This document shows positions 1-13,366 of a stretch of 64,000 nt of DNA, piece by piece. The DNA lies in assembly GCF_002836775.1 (NCBI RefSeq), contig NZ_PJAQ01000066.1, positions 62,001-126,000 of the forward strand, written 5' to 3'. The first letter of the stretch is position 1. Every line of letters begins with the position of its first letter. This DNA comes from Colwellia sp. 12G3. Lineage in GTDB: Bacteria; Pseudomonadota; Gammaproteobacteria; Enterobacterales; Alteromonadaceae. The notes under the pieces are model-generated. The model was given only the letters and a program-made list of their open reading frames with translations. It was not told the origin of the DNA and searched no databases. Made by a program: the position numbers and the translations under genes.

Positions 1-1389
<1,389 letters not shown>

Positions 1390-2535
1390 CTAATTGAAAT
1401 TGAGCTTAATGTGATCAATATCGCTTTTTTTCAGTAGTGCTATTTCCTCGGGTGTTAAATTAACCGCACTGAGCAATGTTTTACTTTCCTCACTGTCAAT
1501 AAGCTCTTCTTTTGCCAAGGCGCGAAATGCGACATAAGCTTTAGCTTTAGCAACAATTTGTGCAACAGGATGCATTTTTTCAGCACTATCAGCATAGGCT
1601 AAATCAAAAATAGGCTCGGTTATATTTAGTCGTCTAAAATGCATTTTTTCAATTAAATCAGCCGACAGTTGCGCGCTTCGCATAATAAGTTGTTCAAGAA
1701 GTAAATCTTCACTTGCTTCAATTTTTGACAATACATTATGCAAACGTTTGTCTTTACTTTCAAAAGCCTCGCGTACTTCTCTTTTATACATCTCACTAAA
1801 CGTTGTTAAATAACAGCGAGTGACCGCAAGTCTACCTATATTTGACAGCATAGCGGTAGTGAAGGCCGTAAACTCATCGAGCCCTTGCTCTTTGGCTAAT
1901 AGTCGAGAAGCGAGTGCAATAGATAAACTATCATTCCATAACTTTCTTTTCATTAGACCATAGGGCGCAGTGCTTGTTGGTAACCAATGTTTAAGGGTAA
2001 AGGTAGGCATGACTAACTTTAAGTTATCTAATCCAATATAACTTAACGCTAATTTAGCATCAGTCATTTGTACATCAGCACGTTTTCGGTATTGCGGTTT
2101 ATTTACTAAGTTTATTAAATCAATGGTTAGCCAAGGTAATGAAGCCGCAAGGTTTTTGATTTGGTTAACTGACGCTGCGCGTGCAGATAAAATATCAAGA
2201 ATAGCAGGGCAAGCCTCTTCAATACCTAAAATGTTATGGTAAAGGTGCTCTTTATTGTCAAAATCACTATTGATTTTCGTGCGAACCCGATTAAAAAAAC
2301 TCTGTTCTGTTTGTTTACGAAAATGCTCTTCACCATGTTCAGCAATAATTTTTTCTTGTTGGGCTTGCACTTCAACAGATAACAATTCTCGGCGACGATT
2401 TTTTTGCTCGCTACCTTGATGGTCAACCATAGTGATTTTTCCACTTTGCTTTTCCGCAAAATCTTTACAGATAGAGAGGCTAATAGCACGTTGGTATATA
2501 GTGGCGACAGCTTGATTGTTTTCAAAAATTTGCAT
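1390..2535 (-). CDS. HDOD domain signalling protein
   Basis: This 381-residue soluble protein has an HDOD domain, a catalytically dead relative of the HD phosphohydrolases found in bacterial signalling proteins. From about residue 105 to 300 it shows the usual order: ILSARAASVNQIKNLAASLP, then VQMTDAKLALSYIGLDNLK, then the WNDSLSIALASRLLAKEQGL helix and FTTAMLSNIGRLAV. The first 90 residues are charged and contain no domain I recognise. There is no receiver or output domain, so its role is unknown. HDOD proteins often take part in stress, motility or c-di-GMP networks. The gene follows pabA on the same strand after a 154-bp gap that contains a heptanucleotide repeat. It ends 401 bp before argD and is probably transcribed on its own. 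Confidence 0.75.
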   Translation of the reverse strand: MQIFENNQAVATIYQRAISLSICKDFAEKQSGKITMVDHQGSEQKNRRRELLSVEVQAQQEKIIAEHGEEHFRKQTEQSFFNRVRTKINSDFDNKEHLYHNILGIEEACPAILDILSARAASVNQIKNLAASLPWLTIDLINLVNKPQYRKRADVQMTDAKLALSYIGLDNLKLVMPTFTLKHWLPTSTAPYGLMKRKLWNDSLSIALASRLLAKEQGLDEFTAFTTAMLSNIGRLAVTRCYLTTFSEMYKREVREAFESKDKRLHNVLSKIEASEDLLLEQLIMRSAQLSADLIEKMHFRRLNITEPIFDLAYADSAEKMHPVAQIVAKAKAYVAFRALAKEELIDSEESKTLLSAVNLTPEEIALLKKSDIDHIKLNFN

Positions 2536-2640
2536 AGAGATTTTGTTGCTTACCTAGGGGATGAAATTCAGCATTGAATATGTAAGTCTAACGCTTAAAT
2601 GCACTAAATTACTACTTTATCTGGCTTTAATCTAAAAATA

Positions 2641-2689
2641 TTTGTTATTTGTTATTTGTTATTTGTTATTTGTTATTTGTTATTTGTTA
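2641..2689. repeat. Seven perfect copies of the 7-bp repeat TTTGTTA
   Basis: TTTGTTA is repeated seven times without a mismatch. On the minus strand it reads TAACAAA. It abuts the pabA stop codon (TAA at 2692-2690) and lies in the 154-bp gap before the HDOD gene. A perfect tandem array of this kind can change copy number by slipped-strand pairing. It lies outside both reading frames, so any effect would be on the HDOD promoter or leader spacing, or on the 3' end of the pabA mRNA. Confidence 0.95.
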
Positions 2690-3289
2690 TTAGTTTATAG
2701 GATGATTTTTAAATTGCTTGATAAAATTTGCTAATAAATTTTGGCCTTGCTCCGTGAGTATCGATTCTGGATGAAATTGTACGCTGCTAATAGCTAGGGT
2801 TTTATGCTCTAGTGCCATAATTTCATCAACTTCACCTTGTTCATTCTGACTCCATGCCGTCATGGTGAGTTCTGCGGGTAATGATTGTTTATTTACAATT
2901 AATGAATGATAACGAGTGACTTGCAGCGGTAGATTCAATTGGCTAAATAAGCCTTGTTGATTATGGATAATCTGGGATGTTTTACCGTGCATCACTTGTT
3001 TTGCTTTTTCGACACGAGCGCCAAAATGTTGCGCAATGCATTGATGCCCTAAGCAAACACCTAATAATGGTATTTTACCGGCAAACTCTTTCACCACTCC
3101 AAGAGATATACCTGCAGAGTCAGGATCACAGGGGCCAGGAGATATAACAATATATTGGGGGTTTAATTGTTTAATTTCATTAAGGCTAATTTCATTATTT
3201 CTATAGACAACAACCTCTTGACCTAGCGCTTGAAAATAATGCACTAAATTAAAAGTAAATGAGTCGTAATTGTCGATCATTAATAACAA
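2690..3289 (-). CDS. pabA: Aminodeoxychorismate/anthranilate synthase glutamine amidotransferase
   Basis: This 199-residue class-I glutamine amidotransferase supplies ammonia to chorismate-using PabB (folate synthesis) or TrpE (tryptophan synthesis). The protein opens with MLLMIDNYDSFTFNL, typical of PabA/TrpG. It has the oxyanion segment SPGPCDPDSAG, the nucleophile Cys79 in LGVCLGHQ and the His173/Glu175 pair in VQFHPES, so the triad is intact. The length is normal for a stand-alone subunit. There is no trp operon around it, and argD lies 1.7 kb away as in other gammaproteobacteria, which supports pabA, possibly with a dual role. The stop codon is directly followed by the TAACAAA tandem repeat. 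Confidence 0.88.
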   Translation of the reverse strand: MLLMIDNYDSFTFNLVHYFQALGQEVVVYRNNEISLNEIKQLNPQYIVISPGPCDPDSAGISLGVVKEFAGKIPLLGVCLGHQCIAQHFGARVEKAKQVMHGKTSQIIHNQQGLFSQLNLPLQVTRYHSLIVNKQSLPAELTMTAWSQNEQGEVDEIMALEHKTLAISSVQFHPESILTEQGQNLLANFIKQFKNHPIN

Positions 3290-3365
3290 AAAAAGTCGCC
3301 TAACAGCTAATAAAATTCGCCGCTATTCTAATGCTTTTATTGTAATGGGGCAATGCAGTAAGGGG

Positions 3366-3514: not shown

Positions 3515-4711
3515 TTAGAACTTAGCGGTCATTTGAACCCATATTTTGTTGGTGTCAGTTGGTGCTATACCTGAATCACCTTCGCTGTAGTTAGCAGCTT
3601 TAACTAAAACACCGTAGTTTTTGTTAATTTGGTAAGTGGCAACTAAATCTAGCTCGTTACCAAAATCAATACTACCTTCATCAGATGAGAAATCATGGTA
3701 AGTTGCAGCCCATTTAACGCCTGAAACTTTACCTTTGGCAGTTAAATAAATATCTTGTAGACCTTCTTTTGGTGTACCTAAGAATTTATCAGCCCAACCG
3801 TTAAACTTATGTTTAGTTGCTAATGGCGTGTTAAAGGCAACTTTACCATCATCACTGCCCAATAATTCATAACCACCTAAAACAGTTACCGGACCAAAGT
3901 TATAACCAGCTTCTGCATTTACATACATTGCAGAGTAGCTAGTAGGGTTATCACCATTATCACTTTGACTTGCTAAGCTAGCGTTAACTAGGAATTTACC
4001 AAACTTACCGTTATATAATGCGCCTAATGTGCTGCTAGAGTTAGCTACGGCTGTATCGTAATCTAAAAGGTATGCAAATCCTGATATTTTATGGCTATTG
4101 TTAATTTTGTAAATACCGTTAACTAGGTGGAAATCACCTTTAGTATTGCCAGAAGTGATGCCGTTGATATTGTGAATCAAGCTATAATCTACAGAAAACG
4201 ACTCTGCTTTATATTCTGCACGAACACCATCATAGGTTTGTTCATTTTGACGCCAGCCAACACCACCAACAAAACGTTGGTTGTTGTGTAAAACACGTTG
4301 ACGGCCAACAATCGCGCTAAAACCATCGTTTGCATATTTGATAAAAGCTTGGTTTACATCAGTACCTTGTGGATCAGCAACGACTGGATATTCTGTTTGG
4401 CCATTTTGTGTGTTGTTATAGTTATCAACTAAAGCGTCAACTTTATCCACTTCTAAACCGAGAGAGAAATTGCTATAGCTACCAGTATCAACCGTGATAC
4501 GGCTTTTTAATGTTAATGCGGAAGCATTTTTGTCTATGCCATCTTGATCTACACTTTCATAACGGGCACGTAAATTAACTTTAACAGTACTCTCGCTAAG
4601 TGCTTTAGTAATGCTATTGCCATGTTCAGTTTCACCTGCAAAGGCGGTAGGAGCAGCTAAAATTGCTGCACTAATTAATGTTAAGGTAAACTTATTTACT
4701 ACTGTTTTCAT
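3515..4711 (-). CDS. Outer-membrane porin
   Basis: This 398-residue protein begins with a clear signal peptide (MKTVVNKFTLTLISAAILAA ending AFA-GETEHG). The rest looks like a beta-barrel: alternating polar and hydrophobic strands and a terminal aromatic residue (VQMTAKF). Segments such as KVNLRARYESVDQDG, VGRQRVLHNNQRFVGGVGWR and YDGVRAEYKAESFSVDY resemble porins of the alginate-export/OprD-like type common in Alteromonadales. The substrate cannot be read from the sequence. The gene stands alone. Two perfect FNR-type sites lie upstream and a terminator follows, so oxygen-dependent expression is likely. A -10-like TATACT at 4774-4769 on the minus strand gives a leader of about 50 nt. Confidence 0.75.
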   Translation of the reverse strand: MKTVVNKFTLTLISAAILAAPTAFAGETEHGNSITKALSESTVKVNLRARYESVDQDGIDKNASALTLKSRITVDTGSYSNFSLGLEVDKVDALVDNYNNTQNGQTEYPVVADPQGTDVNQAFIKYANDGFSAIVGRQRVLHNNQRFVGGVGWRQNEQTYDGVRAEYKAESFSVDYSLIHNINGITSGNTKGDFHLVNGIYKINNSHKISGFAYLLDYDTAVANSSSTLGALYNGKFGKFLVNASLASQSDNGDNPTSYSAMYVNAEAGYNFGPVTVLGGYELLGSDDGKVAFNTPLATKHKFNGWADKFLGTPKEGLQDIYLTAKGKVSGVKWAATYHDFSSDEGSIDFGNELDLVATYQINKNYGVLVKAANYSEGDSGIAPTDTNKIWVQMTAKF

Positions 4712-4893: not shown

Positions 4894-5071
4894 GTTCTGT
4901 CGCGATTTTAAGTTCAATAACCTCAACTCGCTTACTAAGTGGTTAAAAAGGAGTTAACGCTTAAACAGAGTTGAGGATAAATTAAACAGGGCATAAAGCC
5001 CCCCTGTCTAAAAGTTGCATTATTTAGCATAGTGAGCCATTTTTAATACAGATGATTATATTTTATGCTGG

Positions 5072-5311
5072 GTGGATATAGTGCCAGAGGAAAGACGTAA
5101 ATTAGAAGAAAGAATAGGAAAGCTATTGAGAGAATTAACTGTCGCCCAACAATGCTCCTTAAGTAAAATAAGTAGTTATGGTTATACGTTGTCTTTTGTT
5201 CGAACAACAACGAATGGTAAACTGGCGGTTGTACAATTAGATGATGGCGCAATTACGGTTGATGATGAAGGCGAAATAGATCATCATCCGAATATTAAAG
5301 TGCGCAATTAA
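5072..5311 (+). CDS. Small hypothetical acidic/basic protein (79 aa)
   Basis: This is a 79-residue soluble protein of unknown function. It starts with a helical charged segment (PEERRKLEERIGKLLREL) and ends with a short beta-rich part (SFVRTTTNGKLAVVQLDDGAITVDDEGEIDHHP). The assigned start is GTG at 5072 with a weak ribosome-binding site. A second GTG in frame at 5081 is possible. The glutaredoxin gene follows 45 bp later on the same strand, so the two may be co-transcribed. There is no signal peptide or membrane segment, and I do not recognise a family. Confidence 0.55.
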   Translation: MDIVPEERRKLEERIGKLLRELTVAQQCSLSKISSYGYTLSFVRTTTNGKLAVVQLDDGAITVDDEGEIDHHPNIKVRN

Positions 5312-5356
5312 ATTTTTCAGTTGTTAGTTGAAACACACCAATATTAAAGGCTATAA

Positions 5357-5584
5357 ATGAAACGCGTTGTTTTATATACCATGGAAAAATGTCCACATTG
5401 TCAAACAGCAAAACGTTACCTAGAACAACAGGGTATTGCATTTAGGTTATGTAATATTAAAACAGCAAAAGGCCAAAGAGAGTTCGCTGGCACGGGGCTG
5501 CGTGGCGTGCCTGTTTTAAAAGTAGGAGACCAACTGTTAAATGGTTTTTCAATAAAGGATTTTACTGCGCTTTATAATAACTAA
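5357..5584 (+). CDS. Glutaredoxin-like thiol-disulfide protein
   Basis: This 75-residue thioredoxin-fold protein has the glutaredoxin active site Cys-Pro-His-Cys (residues 12-15, EKCPHCQTAKRYL), the cis-proline in RGVPVLKVG and the C-terminal GFSIKDFTALY helix. The length and absence of a signal peptide fit a small cytoplasmic glutaredoxin or NrdH-type redoxin that reduces disulfides with glutathione or a reductase. CPHC differs from the more common CPYC but is seen in this family. The start ATG at 5357 follows a run of AAAGG at a usable distance. No nrd genes are nearby, so the partner is unknown. Confidence 0.8.
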   Translation: MKRVVLYTMEKCPHCQTAKRYLEQQGIAFRLCNIKTAKGQREFAGTGLRGVPVLKVGDQLLNGFSIKDFTALYNN

Positions 5585-6124: not shown

Positions 6125-6688
6125 CTAAATATCAATATCTTTGATGATGATTGCAATTTGTTGTCTGATTCGGTGCAAGTAACCCTTTATGGTTCCTTGC
6201 GTAATTAACAGGTGTTTCGATACTTCCTGTGTTGTTTGTCCCTGCCAGTAATACATATATAGTACCGTGCGATATTGAAGTGGCAATTGTTCTACAAATT
6301 CATTAATCGACTGGTTGACTGACTCACTTATCTCTTCGTTGGAAGTCTTCCAATCAATCATTTCTTCATCTTCATACGCATGGGTTGCAAGATGACGTAT
6401 ATTTTTACGCTGATAATCAATGGCGGTATTTTTTACTAAACGATATAACCAAGTGCTAAACTTACTTTTTCCTGTATAGCTTTTAGCTCTTTCATAGAGC
6501 TTTATATAGATTTCTTGGCAAGCATCATCAACTTCACTCCGAAAATGGATACCAAGGGTAGAGATAACAATACTCTTTATCGATGATTGGTGCTGTTTTA
6601 GCAAACGAGAGAAAGTATTATTATCACCTGATTCAAGAAACTCGGCGACCAATAGTTCATCAGCACCCTGTACGATTTCCCCAGGCAT
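6125..6688 (-). CDS. ECF-type RNA polymerase sigma factor
   Basis: This 187-residue sigma-70 family protein is reduced to regions 2 and 4, the hallmark of ECF sigma factors. Region 2 covers about residues 22-95 (VDDACQEIYIKLYERAKSY, then KFSTWLYRLVKNTAIDYQRK). Region 4 covers about residues 128-180 (LPLQYRTVLYMYYWQGQTTQ, then a helix-turn-helix around ITQGTIKGYLHRIRQQI). It is the second gene after a small membrane protein, with only 2 bp between them. Two copies of a GGCAACC-N16-CGTC promoter precede this operon and the serine hydrolase gene. I infer that this sigma factor recognises that motif and regulates itself. Confidence 0.88.
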   Translation of the reverse strand: MPGEIVQGADELLVAEFLESGDNNTFSRLLKQHQSSIKSIVISTLGIHFRSEVDDACQEIYIKLYERAKSYTGKSKFSTWLYRLVKNTAIDYQRKNIRHLATHAYEDEEMIDWKTSNEEISESVNQSINEFVEQLPLQYRTVLYMYYWQGQTTQEVSKHLLITQGTIKGYLHRIRQQIAIIIKDIDI

Positions 6689-6690
6689 GT

Positions 6691-7116
6691 TTATTTCAAG
6701 TACCTATTACTAATGAAGTTAGTAACCAGCAGAGGAATACCAAGCAATAGAGGAGCTATGGCCATACGAACCATGCCAAACCTTAATTCAACTTGTGCTA
6801 TCACTGCTATCAATACAAAGGTCAACCCCATTAAACTGAGTGCAATAAAAAATACACCTAGTCTAAAGCTTACTTGATGCCATATTCTCATAAAGGTTGT
6901 AGATGTTGTAACCGATTGGCTCATCATCTGATCCATTGTTTCCAGTTCAAAGTTAATATCAATCGGTTCAGCACCAGTTTCTAGGCTTTTTACTCGTTCT
7001 ATATGTAACATCTCTCTGACTTTGACAAACTTCTGTTGTTTAAGGTGAATGTTGATACTTCTAATGACCAGCCATAAAGCGATTAGCGATATGATAAAAA
7101 TCCAAATAGTGTTCAT
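6691..7116 (-). CDS. Small membrane protein encoded with the ECF sigma factor
   Basis: This 141-residue protein has three predicted membrane segments: residues 3-20 (an uncleaved N-terminal anchor), about 85-107, and 112-134. Between the first and second is a 60-residue charged cytoplasmic-type stretch (VREMLHIERVKSLETGAEPI). It sits directly upstream of the sigma factor gene, 2 bp apart, in one operon. The position suggests an anti-sigma or signal-sensing partner. It lacks the zinc-binding HxxxCxxC motif of ZAS anti-sigma factors, so this is inference from context only. The ribosome-binding site TGGAG lies 8 bp before ATG. Confidence 0.7.
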   Translation of the reverse strand: MNTIWIFIISLIALWLVIRSINIHLKQQKFVKVREMLHIERVKSLETGAEPIDINFELETMDQMMSQSVTTSTTFMRIWHQVSFRLGVFFIALSLMGLTFVLIAVIAQVELRFGMVRMAIAPLLLGIPLLVTNFISNRYLK

Positions 7117-7152
7117 AGCGTTACTCCAGTTTTGCGTTTAGTTTAAAATACA

Positions 7153-7185
7153 TTAGACGGACGACCCGATAAACCGGTTGCCTGA
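7153..7185 (-). promoter_or_regulatory. Predicted ECF sigma promoter of the membrane protein-sigma operon
   Basis: On the minus strand this reads TCAGGCAACC, a 16-nt spacer counted from AACC, then CGTCTAA. An AAC-containing -35 element with a CGTC -10 element is the usual architecture of ECF sigma promoters. It ends 37 bp before the start codon at 7116. The same motif with the same spacing occurs at 8850-8882. Confidence 0.7.
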
Positions 7186-7327
7186 TAATGTATAAATATT
7201 TGCACTCTATTTCCAAAATGTTAATTGAGATAATAAATTAATCCACTTAGACACATATTTGAAAATCTAAGGTGCTACAAAAAATTTGGTTATCAACTAT
7301 TTGTAGCACGTCCTTTAACTAAAGAGG

Positions 7328-8815
7328 TTATTGCTTTAATCGCAAGACACCTTCTTTCGCAGACTCAAAATCAGAATCCAATGAAAGTGCTTTTTGATAA
7401 TTCAATAAAGCTTTATTGTTATTTCCTGCTTTTTCATAGGCAGAAGCCAAACTGTCAAAAGTATTCGGATCTTCCGAGAATATCTCGGTATTAACAATAA
7501 AAGCACTAATTGCTTGGTCAAGTTGATTGTTATTAATAAGCGCAAAACCTAATTTGTTTAAAGGTCTTGCAGTAAATTTTAAAGGTCTAGCTGTAAATTG
7601 ATCATATCCTGCTTGAGAGAACTCACGTTTAGCATTTTCTACAAAGTAAGCATCTCCTTTATTTTCTAATAACTTTGCCGCAAATAACCCTATAGGTAAC
7701 AGAACCTTTTTATATTGTTTGCCTTGATGAACTTCAATCACTCTTTGGGTAATGCGCTCTGCTACCACTCCATCAGTATTTGCTAAGGCGATCACCATAA
7801 ACTTATCTTTTATTAATATCTCTACAGCAGCACTTACTCCAGGTCCTCCGCCATAAGAGATCACTTTAGTCTTATCATTATCTAAAAATTCAGACCATGG
7901 TTTGATTGATTTTTTGTAATGATTTATCATCATTGCTTTTGATTGGTCGTTAAGTAACTGGTTGCTATAATAAAGCTTTGAAAAAAACATCGCCAGGTCG
8001 TAAGGCGTTGAATACATTCCACCATCAGGTGTTAAATTCTCCAAACGACTCGTTCTATCTATTTTTGTCCCCATTGGAGTGAACTGATAACTTTTAGCTT
8101 TATCTTTAACGTTTTCAGTCAAGGCGTATTGGGTATTATCAGCCTTAATTACTTTTAAAATATTTTCATCAATAATCGATTGAAAGCTCTTTTTTTCAAG
8201 TTTCTCTAAAATAGCGCCCAAAACAATATAACCATAGTTTGAATAGCTGTATTGTTTACCTGGCTCAGAAATTAGAGGCTTGTTTAATAATAAAGGTAGT
8301 TTGTCATTGATAGTTTTTAATGAGCGGTATGTTTTATAATATTCATTATTAAATATGTCAGCAAAACCTGAAGTATGCTTCAGTAAATGACGCACCGTTA
8401 TTTTCTTCGCAACGTCTTTTGGAAAGCCCAACTCGAACTTTTCTAACGTATCATCTAGTGATATTTTTCCTGACTGAACTTTTTGCATTATTAAAGTTGC
8501 AGTAAAGCTTTTATTTATCGAACCGATTCTGGTTTTTGTTGCAGAAGTATTTTTTACAGTATTATCTAAATCAGCTAAACCAAAGCTCTTATCATAAATA
8601 ACTTTGTCACCTTTAAATATCACCACACTGCCAGAAAACCAACCAGGGTCTGTGTACTGTTTAATTATTTCGTCTGTCTTACTAATTAATAATTTATTTG
8701 ACGCTTGTGGAAGTGATTTTTTTTCGTCAGCATTTGCGATATTTGAACTAGTGCTAATCAGTAAAAAAATAACGAGTAAATAGGTTAACTTGGATCGAAT
8801 TGTTGTTTGCTTCAT
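7328..8815 (-). CDS. Serine beta-lactamase-like hydrolase with C-terminal TPR
   Basis: This exported 495-residue protein carries a class-C beta-lactamase/PBP-like domain (about residues 55-350) and a short C-terminal TPR segment (about 415-490, NPNTFDSLASAYEKAG). The signal peptide ends near ANA-DEK at residues 28-30. The catalytic SxxK is Ser99-Ile-Asn-Lys102 and the Tyr-Ser-Asn motif is residues 191-193. The third motif, usually HTG, HGG or KTG, appears as YGGGPG, so the basic or histidine residue is missing. Relatives act as D-aminopeptidases, esterases or DD-peptidases, and true antibiotic resistance is unlikely. An ECF-type promoter lies 35 bp upstream, which places the gene in the regulon of the adjacent sigma factor. 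Confidence 0.8.
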   Translation of the reverse strand: MKQTTIRSKLTYLLVIFLLISTSSNIANADEKKSLPQASNKLLISKTDEIIKQYTDPGWFSGSVVIFKGDKVIYDKSFGLADLDNTVKNTSATKTRIGSINKSFTATLIMQKVQSGKISLDDTLEKFELGFPKDVAKKITVRHLLKHTSGFADIFNNEYYKTYRSLKTINDKLPLLLNKPLISEPGKQYSYSNYGYIVLGAILEKLEKKSFQSIIDENILKVIKADNTQYALTENVKDKAKSYQFTPMGTKIDRTSRLENLTPDGGMYSTPYDLAMFFSKLYYSNQLLNDQSKAMMINHYKKSIKPWSEFLDNDKTKVISYGGGPGVSAAVEILIKDKFMVIALANTDGVVAERITQRVIEVHQGKQYKKVLLPIGLFAAKLLENKGDAYFVENAKREFSQAGYDQFTARPLKFTARPLNKLGFALINNNQLDQAISAFIVNTEIFSEDPNTFDSLASAYEKAGNNNKALLNYQKALSLDSDFESAKEGVLRLKQ

Positions 8816-8849
8816 TGGTTTTCCTGTTCTGTTGTTGGCTTAAAGCTGT

Positions 8850-8882
8850 TTAGACGGACGATCGGAAAAAGTGGTTGCCTGA
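8850..8882 (-). promoter_or_regulatory. Predicted ECF sigma promoter of the serine hydrolase gene
   Basis: TCAGGCAACC and GTCCGTCTAA on the minus strand are identical to the elements at 7153-7185, and the start-to-start distance between the two blocks is the same (23 bp). Most of the intervening bases differ, so selection on the two boxes is likely. The predicted leader is about 27 nt and the AGGA ribosome-binding site lies just before ATG 8815. Confidence 0.7.
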
Positions 8883-9914: not shown

Positions 9915-10066
9915 CTCTACATACAAAGAGTTACAGTGGTTTTATAAGCTGGCATTAATAATGCTTGGTCTTGTCTGACATGAAATTTTAATGCTGGAGT
10001 TGACATGGTTCAAGAAAATAATGAAGGGTAAAGTTCCGATAACACCTTACTATAGGAGTGTGGAGT

Positions 10067-13000
10067 GTGGATAGTAAAATAAAATCCCCCATAGTTATTT
10101 ACTCTATATGCGCAAGCGCAATTGCGATTTTTGGTTTGCTTGGATATCTTCCAGGACTTGGAGTGTTGGCTAGCATAAGTGAGTCTGACATTCCTATGGC
10201 CCCGAGTACTGCTATCAGTTTCATTGTGCTGTCTGGAATTTTATTTACCCTTTCTCTGCGTTCTTCATCACAATCAAGCTTGCGTGTATCCTTTTCTCTA
10301 ACCATGGTAGTTACCTTATTTGCAGCCCTTGAAGTTGTTGGTTATTTCACCGGCTTAGACCTCAACTTCGAGGATGCTTTGGTTCCAGCTGCTGGACAGC
10401 TCGGCGAGATACCTATCGGTCGTATGTCTGTGTACACAGGAGCCTTGTTCTTGCTTTCCGGTCTAGCTGTACTTGCCTTACTTTGGCGCGTCCGAGGAAA
10501 TAACAGCAAAATCAATCTGACGGACTTAATCGGCGTACTGGGTGCTCTAACATTTAGCACAGCCTTCATTGTCTGTCTTACCTATTTCTTTGGCAGCCAT
10601 CTTCTATACGGACAAGGTGCTACTATTCCGATGGCCTTGACGACGGCATTGGCCTTTATCATGCTGGGTGCTGCAATAGTTGGTGCTTCTGGGAAAGGCT
10701 CTATTCCTCTATGTTGGCTCTCTTCCACCATTAACGTTGGAACTAGCGCTGAAATAAGTGAAGGAAAAAGATTATTTTCATTGGCCATGGTGATGGTCCT
10801 AGTATCTTTAATGGTGATGACCATCACTATTGTCATACTCTATCGTCAAAATATCACGGAGCACAGAATGCTTCTAACGGATACAGTCCAAAGCCAAGCC
10901 CGCTTAATTGAAGCGGTTGCGCGATACGATGCAATTAATGAGAAAGAAACACAAGAAGCGTCTTTGGCCACTATAGGCCAAGTTATCGATGCCCATAAAA
11001 ATTACAAAGGGTTTGGTGATACGGGGGAATTTGTATTAGCTCAGCTAGACGGGGATAAAATCGAATTCATCATACAAAATCGTTCCGATTCAGCAGCCCC
11101 CCCTCAGTCAGTGCCTTTTAACTCCGAGCTGGCAGAGCCAATGCGATTAGCCTTGAAGGGGCTCTCAGGTACAATCATTGGCCTTGATTATCATGGTGAA
11201 ATAGTAATGGCAGCTTACGAACCGGTTGCAATACTAAACATGGGGCTAGTGGTCAAAATTGACTTAGAAGAAATCCGTAAACCTTTTATACAAACCGCTC
11301 TCACAACAACCGTCATTGCTTTTATACTTATTCTTGGCGCTACGGCTATATTCTTCCGACTAGGTCAGCCAATTATTACTCAGTTGAGGAAGCACAACAA
11401 GAACATCAGCGAACTCAGACAAGCAGAAGAGTCAGTAGCAAGTTTAGGCAAAATAATTACAGAATCGCTTAATGAAATTTTTATATTCGATGCTGAGTCT
11501 TTTGAATTTATATATGCAAATAATAGGTCCCTGGAAAATCTTGGATATACTATTGATGAGCTTAAATCTCGAACTCCAGTTGATATTAAACCTGAATATA
11601 CATTAGAAAAGTTTACAGAGTTGACGCGACCACTTCGAACAGGTGCAAAGGATCATTTAGTCTTTACAACAACCCACAAAAGAAAAGACAAGTCTCTTTA
11701 TGATGTTCAGATTCATTTGCAACTATCAGAATATATTGAGCAAAAGGCTTATATTGCAACAATCTTAGACATGACAGAGCGTAAGCAGGCGGAGAAAGAG
11801 AAAGCAAAGCAGGCCTGGGAATTAATTTTCGCCAATAATCAAGTTACGGCACATAGAAAGCGTCTTTCTGCCATCATCAATAATCTTATGGATGCCCTGA
11901 TTACGATTAGTGAGCGCGGAATTATTGAAATATTCAATCCGGCTGCAACGAAAATGTTCGGCTACACAGAAGAAGAAGTCATAGGTCAAAATATCAAGAT
12001 GCTGATGCCAGAGCCTTATCATAAAGAACATGATGGTTATCTAGATAACTACATCACAACAGGCGAAAAAAAGGTAATGGGGATCGAGCGAGAGGTTAAA
12101 GGACGCTACAAGGATGGCACAACCTTTCCTATGGTGTTGTCAATAAGTGAAACTTATATCAATGGTGAAAGACTTTTTATTGGCATCATCCGTGACATCA
12201 CCGAGCATAAGCGAACAGAAGAATTACTTCGACGTTCCCAGAAAATGGAGACAATTGGTGAACTAACAGGCGGTATTTCCCATGACTTCAATAATTTACT
12301 CGGCATTATCATAGGTAACCATGATCTGATGCGACGCGAAATTGAGGATGGAAGCAAGCAGCAAAAAAGATTAAACAATGCACAGAATGCAGCGCTACGA
12401 GGCGCTGAGATAACGCGTCGACTGCTTAACTTCTCAAGACAATCTGAAGAAGCACATAGCCCAGTGAAAATTGATAAAATAATCGCTGAATTTGAGGATT
12501 TCATTCGCAAATCAATCACTGCCAGCATAAACCTTGAGATACATATTGAAAAGGATATCTGGTTGGTTGACCTCAACCCGGGTGACTTTCAGGATGCAAT
12601 TATTAACCTAACCCTCAATGCACGAGATGCCATGCCCTCAGGTGGACGTTTAATCATTGAGGCTAGAAATATAATTTTGGATCATAATATGGCCGACTTA
12701 AAATATGGCATAAAGGCAGGTGAATATGTGCAAATATCGGTCAGTGATTCAGGAACGGGAATGACAAAAGCAACCGCGGATAAAATTTTTGACCCTTTTT
12801 TTACTACCAAGGATAAGAGTAAGGGAACCGGTCTGGGTCTGGCAATGGTATTCGGCTTTGTCAAAAGATGTAATGGCAGCATTAATGTCTACTCAGAAGA
12901 AGGTGAAGGTACATCCTTTAAAGTATATTTACCCCGTTCTCTGAGTGCGGCAGACTCTTATAAAAAGCGTACTGATATAGACAAAATACTGCCAACGGGT

Positions 13001-13366
13001 AATGAAACGGTTCTTATTGTAGATGACGAGGAAGATCTTGTGGCCATAGCAAAAAGTGTGCTTGAGAATCTTGGCTATACTACATACTGCGCCTCTAGTG
13101 GAGATGAGGCTCTGGAAATAATAACTCATAATAATAAAATTGACATTATATTTTCAGATGTTGTGATGCCTGGGTACTTGAGTGGCTTTGATTTAGCTGA
13201 AGCTGTGGTTGCAGTAAAGCCAGAGATTAAAATATTATTAACTTCAGGGTTTACAGGTAAAATGAAACAGCAGGAAGCTCACCAAAAATGGTCACTCAAT
13301 TTATTGAACAAGCCATACCGGGATCTGGAGCTTGCTGAGGCGATCAGAAAAGCGTTGGACAATTAG
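10067..13366 (+). CDS. Hybrid sensor histidine kinase (membrane sensor, PAS-PAS-HisKA-HATPase-REC)
   Basis: This is a large inner-membrane hybrid kinase. The first 220 residues contain about seven membrane helices. A further helix near 240-260 leads into a periplasmic sensor of about 130 residues, closed by another helix near 415-430. Two PAS domains follow (about 470-580 and 610-735). The phospho-acceptor His is near residue 739 ([12 protein letters not shown]), and the ATP-binding domain shows the N box ([11 protein letters not shown]), [20 protein letters not shown] and [13 protein letters not shown]-terminal receiver has its phospho-Asp near 1031 ([10 protein letters not shown]). I place the start at GTG 10067, because the AGGAG at 10054-10058 overlaps an earlier GTG at 10058 but is 8 bp from this one. 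A receiver-EAL gene follows 9 bp later, probably as the output. Confidence 0.88.

Follow-up and report, generated by a model that had tools for sequence, protein, structure and literature searches.

The window, a stretch of 64,000 nucleotides from Colwellia sp. 12G3, belongs to a genome (G000) of 5.06 Mb in 68 contigs. Three genes and two promoter-like sites on its minus strand form the locus described here.

6125..6688, minus strand: ECF sigma factor of 187 aa, with PF04542 at residues 30-96 and PF08281 at 127-177
6691..7116, minus strand: small membrane protein of 141 aa that presumably pairs with the sigma factor and restrains it, remotely DUF6249-like, with orthologues 77-84% identical
7153..7182, minus strand: putative ECF promoter of the membrane protein-sigma operon, GGCAACCGGTTTATCGGGTCGTCCGTCTAA, 36 nt before the ATG
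7328..8815, minus strand: serine hydrolase of the beta-lactamase family (PF00144) with C-terminal TPR, 495 aa, recognised by its domain match, motifs and signal-like N-terminus
8850..8879, minus strand: putative ECF promoter of the hydrolase, GGCAACCACTTTTTCCGATCGTCCGTCTAA, 34 nt before the ATG

Read along the minus strand, the hydrolase gene lies upstream and is followed by the membrane protein gene and, after a gap of 2 nt, by the sigma gene, the membrane protein being the sole neighbour of the sigma factor within the same operon. A Pfam scan of the 187-aa sigma protein found sigma-70 regions 2 and 4 only, which identifies it as an ECF factor, and a sigma search with 8 matches in G000 shows that the genome holds other ECF genes as well. 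This check of reading frames and Pfam domains agrees with the first-pass annotation, which had recognised an ECF sigma factor, a membrane protein and a hydrolase.

The hydrolase matches PF00144 with an E value of 5.5e-48 and carries both family motifs, SxxK as SINK at residue 99 and YxN as YSN at residue 191, which places it in the family; its N-terminus is signal-like as read by eye. It scores 57.5 bits against the class C beta-lactamase cut-off of 415 (NCBIfam bla_class_C), and among solved structures it is matched best by a Pbp-related beta-lactamase and D-alanyl-D-alanine carboxypeptidases. Because of these motifs, the structural matches and the score far below the class C cut-off, the enzyme would more probably act on the cell wall or on a peptide than confer classical beta-lactam resistance. 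A general link between this hydrolase subfamily and ECF factors was rejected, as 25 non-orthologous relatives (L158-L182) have no ECF gene within about 1.5 kb.

The membrane protein belongs to no Pfam or NCBIfam family in profile scans and contains no anti-sigma domain recognisable in either collection. The earlier statement that it lacks a known anti-sigma signature is thus right by Pfam and NCBIfam, yet a remote relative, the DUF6249 family, is tied to ECF genes. A profile-profile comparison with DUF6249 gave a probability of 91.6 and an E value of 8.3e-7 for a single comparison, a link that rests on a four-row profile and is confined to the hydrophobic TM2-TM3 segment. Against the gathering cut-off of 33 bits for DUF6249 (PF19762), the window protein had no match, and of the two orthologues scanned, one (L036) had none and the other (L037) reached 14.3 bits (E 0.04). 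The AlphaFold model, of modest confidence (mean pLDDT 70, pTM 0.43), places helices at residues 3-46, 55-67, 69-106 and 113-140, and the topology read by eye suggests that the first two membrane helices are linked by a cytoplasmic stretch of about 60 residues.

Paired promoter-like sites and their conservation

The motif GGCAACC-N16-CGTCTAA occurs on the minus strand ahead of both the operon and the hydrolase gene, and the coordinates bear out the earlier claim that one copy precedes the membrane protein-sigma operon and the other the serine hydrolase. The spans first assigned to the two copies (7153-7185 and 8850-8882) were 3 nt too long, the true ones being 7153-7182 and 8850-8879. A distance of 35-37 bp to the start codon had also been proposed; counted from the last box base to the ATG, this holds for the operon (36 nt) and fails for the hydrolase (34 nt). 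The boxes are identical as reported, over blocks larger than those described, namely TCAGGCAACC and TCGTCCGTCTAA. Passages of PMC8103513 describe AAC (-35) and CGT (-10) as classical ECF promoter elements, and both are contained in the window boxes; in the same account, an autoregulated promoter of this AAC/CGT type is not required of every ECF factor.

With the looser pattern GGCAACC-N14-18-CGTC, the 64-kb window gave 2 matches against 0.07 expected, a count that none of 100 shuffles reached, and the whole genome contained two further sites besides these two, 4 in all, compared with 2 of the reversed pattern. The exact pattern GGCAACC-N15-CCGTCTAA was found genome-wide at these two sites only, with no site at one mismatch and 11 sites, against 7 for the reversed pattern, at two mismatches. 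Extra regulon targets were sought with two mismatches in 27 genomes (27 sites against 29 reversed in G000), and because this search gave background only, no further targets are claimed.

Orthologues of the sigma factor, 74-85% identical, are present in three further genomes, a Colwellia MAG (L035), Litorilituus lipolyticus (L036) and a Colwelliaceae MAG (L037). Within the genus, 2 of 39 genomes (G000 and G005) hold a close copy, the next best match among those listed having 27% identity. A profile of the membrane protein matched in 5 of 295 family genomes, strongly in the four sigma holders and weakly in G069. Both copies of the motif are kept in all four genomes with orthologues, which carry three genus codes. 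Over the eight sites of these genomes, every one of the 15 box columns is invariant, compared with 12 of the 125 other columns (5/60 upstream, 2/15 in the spacer and 5/50 downstream; p = 3e-13). Spacers and flanks have diverged around boxes that are the same in all four genomes, which upholds the earlier impression that the motif is under selection. In L035, the sequence ahead of the hydrolase gene can be aligned with the operon promoter plus the first part of the membrane protein gene (69% over 148 nt), and a duplicated operon promoter may be the origin of the hydrolase promoter.

When 395 family genomes were scanned for exact GGCAACC-N16-CGTCTAA, 20 sites were found in 16 genomes, and the reversed pattern gave 15 matches. 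The genomes with two sites are exactly the four sigma holders among the 395, both sites always lie at this locus, and these four genomes have no site elsewhere at zero or one mismatch. The 12 other genomes have one match each, and at none of these 12 loci does a gene for a sigma factor, a DUF6249 protein or a hydrolase lie within about 1.5 kb. The proposal of a small regulon with a non-random motif has thus come through a genome-wide scan: the exact pair is restricted to this locus, and the single matches are about as frequent as those of the reversed control.

DUF6249 modules in other genera

A PF19762 search of 118 family genomes, of which 36 matched at E values up to 0.01 and 22 over the cut-off, returned 30 loci. 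The 25 with small DUF6249 proteins were kept; five loci with long frames (L098-L102) and ten rows without a locus, all below the Pfam cut-off, were left aside. An ECF sigma gene is the next gene downstream of the small DUF6249 gene in all 25 family loci, with L119 counted by the coordinates of its PF19762 match. Fourteen of these loci, and none of 28 other ECF loci, have a hydrolase of the same superfamily no further than about 1.5 kb away (p = 1.9e-6); the remaining 11 have none in that range. Of 30 loci collected with the window promoter pattern, four had a hydrolase, and these are the four window-type loci. The genome of L035 carries a second module as well, composed of a hydrolase, a DUF6249 protein, an ECF sigma factor and a small membrane protein. 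A small third membrane protein encoded after sigma could be aligned from 17 of 26 DUF6249 loci (the 25 and that of L035), 6 of the 17 matching DUF5056 at E values up to 0.01; this third gene is absent from all four window-type loci.

In a sample of the class, DUF6249 was rare (4 of 229 genomes at E values up to 1e-5). An ECF gene stood beside it at 4 of 4 matches over the cut-off (three genomes) in other families of the class, and none of five DUF6249 loci from those families had a hydrolase within about 1.5 kb. In a tree of 45 ECF proteins, from which 14 of the 28 other ECF rows were left out, the four window-type sigma factors form a supported clade of their own, outside a clade that holds 24 of the 26 DUF6249-linked sigma factors. 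A position of the window sigma inside the DUF6249-linked clade was not supported, and a single clade of all 30 was not rejected (AU p = 0.36). Because the resemblance of the window's membrane protein to DUF6249 is remote and the window sigma factor falls outside the DUF6249-linked clade, the locus is not filed with the DUF6249 modules.

The window form AACC-N16-CGTC is not used in other DUF6249 modules. Upstream of many of them we read by eye a different motif, TGCATCY-N19-TCTAA; when the sequences preceding the hydrolase genes of L035b, L111, L125 and L127 were aligned with MAFFT, no common block stood out clearly. Across 26 loci (338 kb) a loose regular expression had 23 matches, of which 10 preceded DUF6249 genes, 7 preceded hydrolase genes and 6 lay in other places, a count that is post hoc because the pattern was picked after looking. 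The pattern thus precedes the DUF6249 gene in only 10 of 26 loci, and in five (L114, L116, L118, L121 and L123) it stands before the DUF6249 gene and the hydrolase gene alike. In 30 genomes (14 DUF6249-positive, 4 window-type and 12 others), TGCATCYA-N18-TCTA occurred 21 times, with 14 of the occurrences in module loci and the other 7 outside them, compared with 5 matches of the reversed pattern; this count is again post hoc.

The scan was extended with TGCATCYA-N18-TCTAA to all 395 genomes, including those from which the motif came and without restriction to DUF6249 loci, and gave 55 sites in 43 genomes, 19 in module loci and 36 elsewhere, against 21 for the reversed pattern. As the 36 sites outside modules exceed the 21 reversed ones, there may be additional targets in the TGCATCY regulons, or else the control may be an imperfect one. 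Eight genomes have two such sites within 5 kb, and seven of the pairs (G313, G099, G268, G556, G093, G202 and G135) lie at loci with sigma, DUF6249 and hydrolase genes. Four of these seven (G313, G268, G556 and G202) are new from the scan, G268 and G556 sharing a genus code with G093. In the eighth genome (G077) the sites are 123 bp apart, with no module gene within 11 kb. Taking one locus each in 30 of the 43 genomes, all three genes were present in 7, sigma and DUF6249 in 1, the hydrolase alone in 1, other sigma-like frames in 1 and none in 20.

A candidate two-promoter regulon and its alternatives

Our main reading, to which we assign a probability of about 0.78, is that the locus would constitute a private ECF sigma regulon of two promoters, restrained at the membrane, autoregulated and with one exported effector. 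The sequence directly shows the three genes and the pair of sites, as well as how well these sites are conserved and that they are confined to the locus; the reading of the sites by sigma, the restraint, the signal and the substrate we infer. The sigma factor (6125-6688) would recognise GGCAACC-N16-CGTCTAA and thereby transcribe two units, its own operon and the hydrolase gene. At rest, the membrane protein would tether sigma at the inner membrane through its cytoplasmic stretch; an envelope signal would release it, and positive feedback would then build up the pair of membrane protein and sigma. The exported hydrolase would act on a cell-wall peptide, an ester or a beta-lactam-like substrate. 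We likewise infer the envelope response itself. The first step, in which sigma reads both promoters, is well supported by co-occurrence of the gene and the paired sites. The initial proposal that the sigma factor autoregulates its operon and drives the hydrolase as a small regulon gains support from the conserved pairing of the sites and from the same plan, with a different promoter, in other genera.

The role of the membrane protein admits a competing account that we consider a real, if less probable, option. The sites would still be ECF promoters of this sigma factor, and the membrane protein would be a co-regulated effector or sensor, with sigma controlled at the level of transcription or by a different protein, which in the DUF6249 modules could be the DUF5056-like product of the third gene. 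Consistent with this account, neither Pfam nor NCBIfam recognises an anti-sigma domain in the membrane protein, and the small membrane protein encoded after sigma in 17 of the 26 DUF6249 loci, 6 of them DUF5056 matches, could be the anti-sigma factor there. Against it, the four window-type loci have no such third gene, and the membrane protein is the only gene product encoded beside sigma in the operon. From this position and the missing third gene, the membrane protein most likely restrains the sigma factor.

It is improbable that the motif is read by another regulator, whether a different sigma factor or a DNA-binding protein, with the ECF gene merely one of its targets. The other ECF genes of G000 supply candidates, but the coincidence of two-site genomes with sigma holders among 395, the lack of any other site at zero or one mismatch in those four genomes, and the AAC and CGT boxes ahead of the sigma operon, which fit autoregulation, all speak for this sigma factor. 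Still more improbable is that the two sites resemble each other merely through a promoter-region duplication, with the operon site alone functional: the alignment in L035 would agree with it, but spacers and flanks have diverged around hydrolase boxes that are invariant in all four genomes, and other genera have paired promoters before DUF6249 and hydrolase genes.

We find the wider DUF6249-ECF-hydrolase plan more interesting than the window regulon. We tentatively suggest, as a conjecture we hold less probable than its opposite, that DUF6249 proteins and their remote relatives could be a class of small membrane proteins, not described before, that regulate ECF factors. In one family of marine bacteria they would form 'one sigma, one effector' switches, each sigma factor controlling the operon it belongs to and a single exported hydrolase of the beta-lactamase family. 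In that case the window would carry a divergent form of the switch that uses a promoter code of its own and whose membrane protein fills the role of the missing third gene. Our searches found no literature on DUF6249 with a sigma factor, on DUF5056 or on the DUF6249-ECF-hydrolase plan, part of which a published ECF group may cover, and DUF6249 by itself led only to a plant paper; among the matches listed, none was relevant to Colwellia and ECF factors or to TGCATCC and ECF factors.

Significance and relation to known systems

Many genomic ECF factors have no known targets; in this case the targets seem so few that they can be named directly. DUF6249, a domain of unknown function, gains a testable role beside ECF factors, and exported beta-lactamase-like enzymes are tied to a dedicated regulator in marine bacteria.

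The locus resembles the classical ECF/anti-sigma operons described in passages of PMC8103513, which combine autoregulation with a co-transcribed anti-sigma factor: its sigma factor has no sigma-70 regions beyond 2 and 4, AAC and CGT occur in the boxes, sigma shares an operon with a membrane protein, and a promoter-like site precedes that operon, a position that fits autoregulation. It differs from the operons of that account in that the partner has no anti-sigma domain and is encoded upstream of sigma, and in that the regulon seemingly comprises two promoters. The nearest functional analogue in the sources consulted is SigmaP/RsiP of Bacillus thuringiensis, an ECF system described in parts of PMC8791391, PMC8844934 and PMC8092216 as controlling beta-lactamase and penicillin-binding-protein genes. 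The common point would be an ECF factor with a beta-lactamase-type target; the regulon of 8 identified members, the degradation of the anti-sigma factor RsiP and the beta-lactam signal are features that these accounts give for SigmaP.

With the DUF6249 (PF19762)-ECF modules the locus shares a membrane protein gene directly upstream of sigma, a hydrolase neighbour (14 of 25 loci there) and a cognate promoter before both units, as seen in several of those loci. In contrast to them, the window type has no third gene, its sigma factor lies outside their clade, its membrane protein stays below the Pfam cut-off, and its promoter reads GGCAACC-N18-TCTAA rather than TGCATCY-N19-TCTAA. The same plan is therefore spelled in other letters (GGCAACC versus TGCATCY, with 18 versus 19 nt to TCTAA), which makes sigma-promoter specificity testable by swaps between the two types.

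Paired promoter-like sites in genome G077

L232 (G077:C67:8500-19500) 4516 and 4639, + strand: two TGCATCC-N19-TCTA sites, located by pattern match

These two sites are spaced 123 bp apart, and no sigma factor, DUF6249 or hydrolase genes were found within the 11 kb around them. The gene at 3745-4446 (- strand) of the same locus is similar to that at 7754-8446 of L106, a gene of the module locus in genome G116. G077 seems to have lost the module and kept its promoters.

An orphan ORF and a gene fragment in genomes G221 and G069

L184 (G221) 5034-5417, - strand: orphan 128-aa ORF with similarity to the window's hydrolase
L185 (G069) 5337-5540, + strand: fragment similar to the window's membrane protein, by sequence match

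The orphan ORF, perhaps a relic, shares 55% identity with the C-terminal TPR part (residues 373-494) of the window's hydrolase, and beyond it the 10.5-kb L184 contains no further match to the window's three proteins. The L185 fragment is interrupted by an in-frame stop and matches the window's membrane protein at residues 72-139 with 35% identity; the window's sigma factor found no match across the 11 kb of this locus.

Additional genes at window-type loci

L037 (Colwelliaceae MAG) 6576-7037, + strand: small gene 3' of the sigma gene, product with signal-like N-terminus
window 10058-13366, + strand: ORF of 1102 aa
L035 (Colwellia MAG) 215-3321, - strand: second ECF module, with genes for a hydrolase, a DUF6249 protein, a sigma factor and a small membrane protein

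The L037 product bears weak similarity to SnoaL_2 (E 0.044), and no counterpart of its gene was observed behind the sigma gene in L035, L036 (Litorilituus lipolyticus) or the window. Judged by eye, the product of the window's 1102-aa ORF resembles a hybrid sensor kinase. In L035, the second ECF module adjoins the window-type module in divergent orientation.
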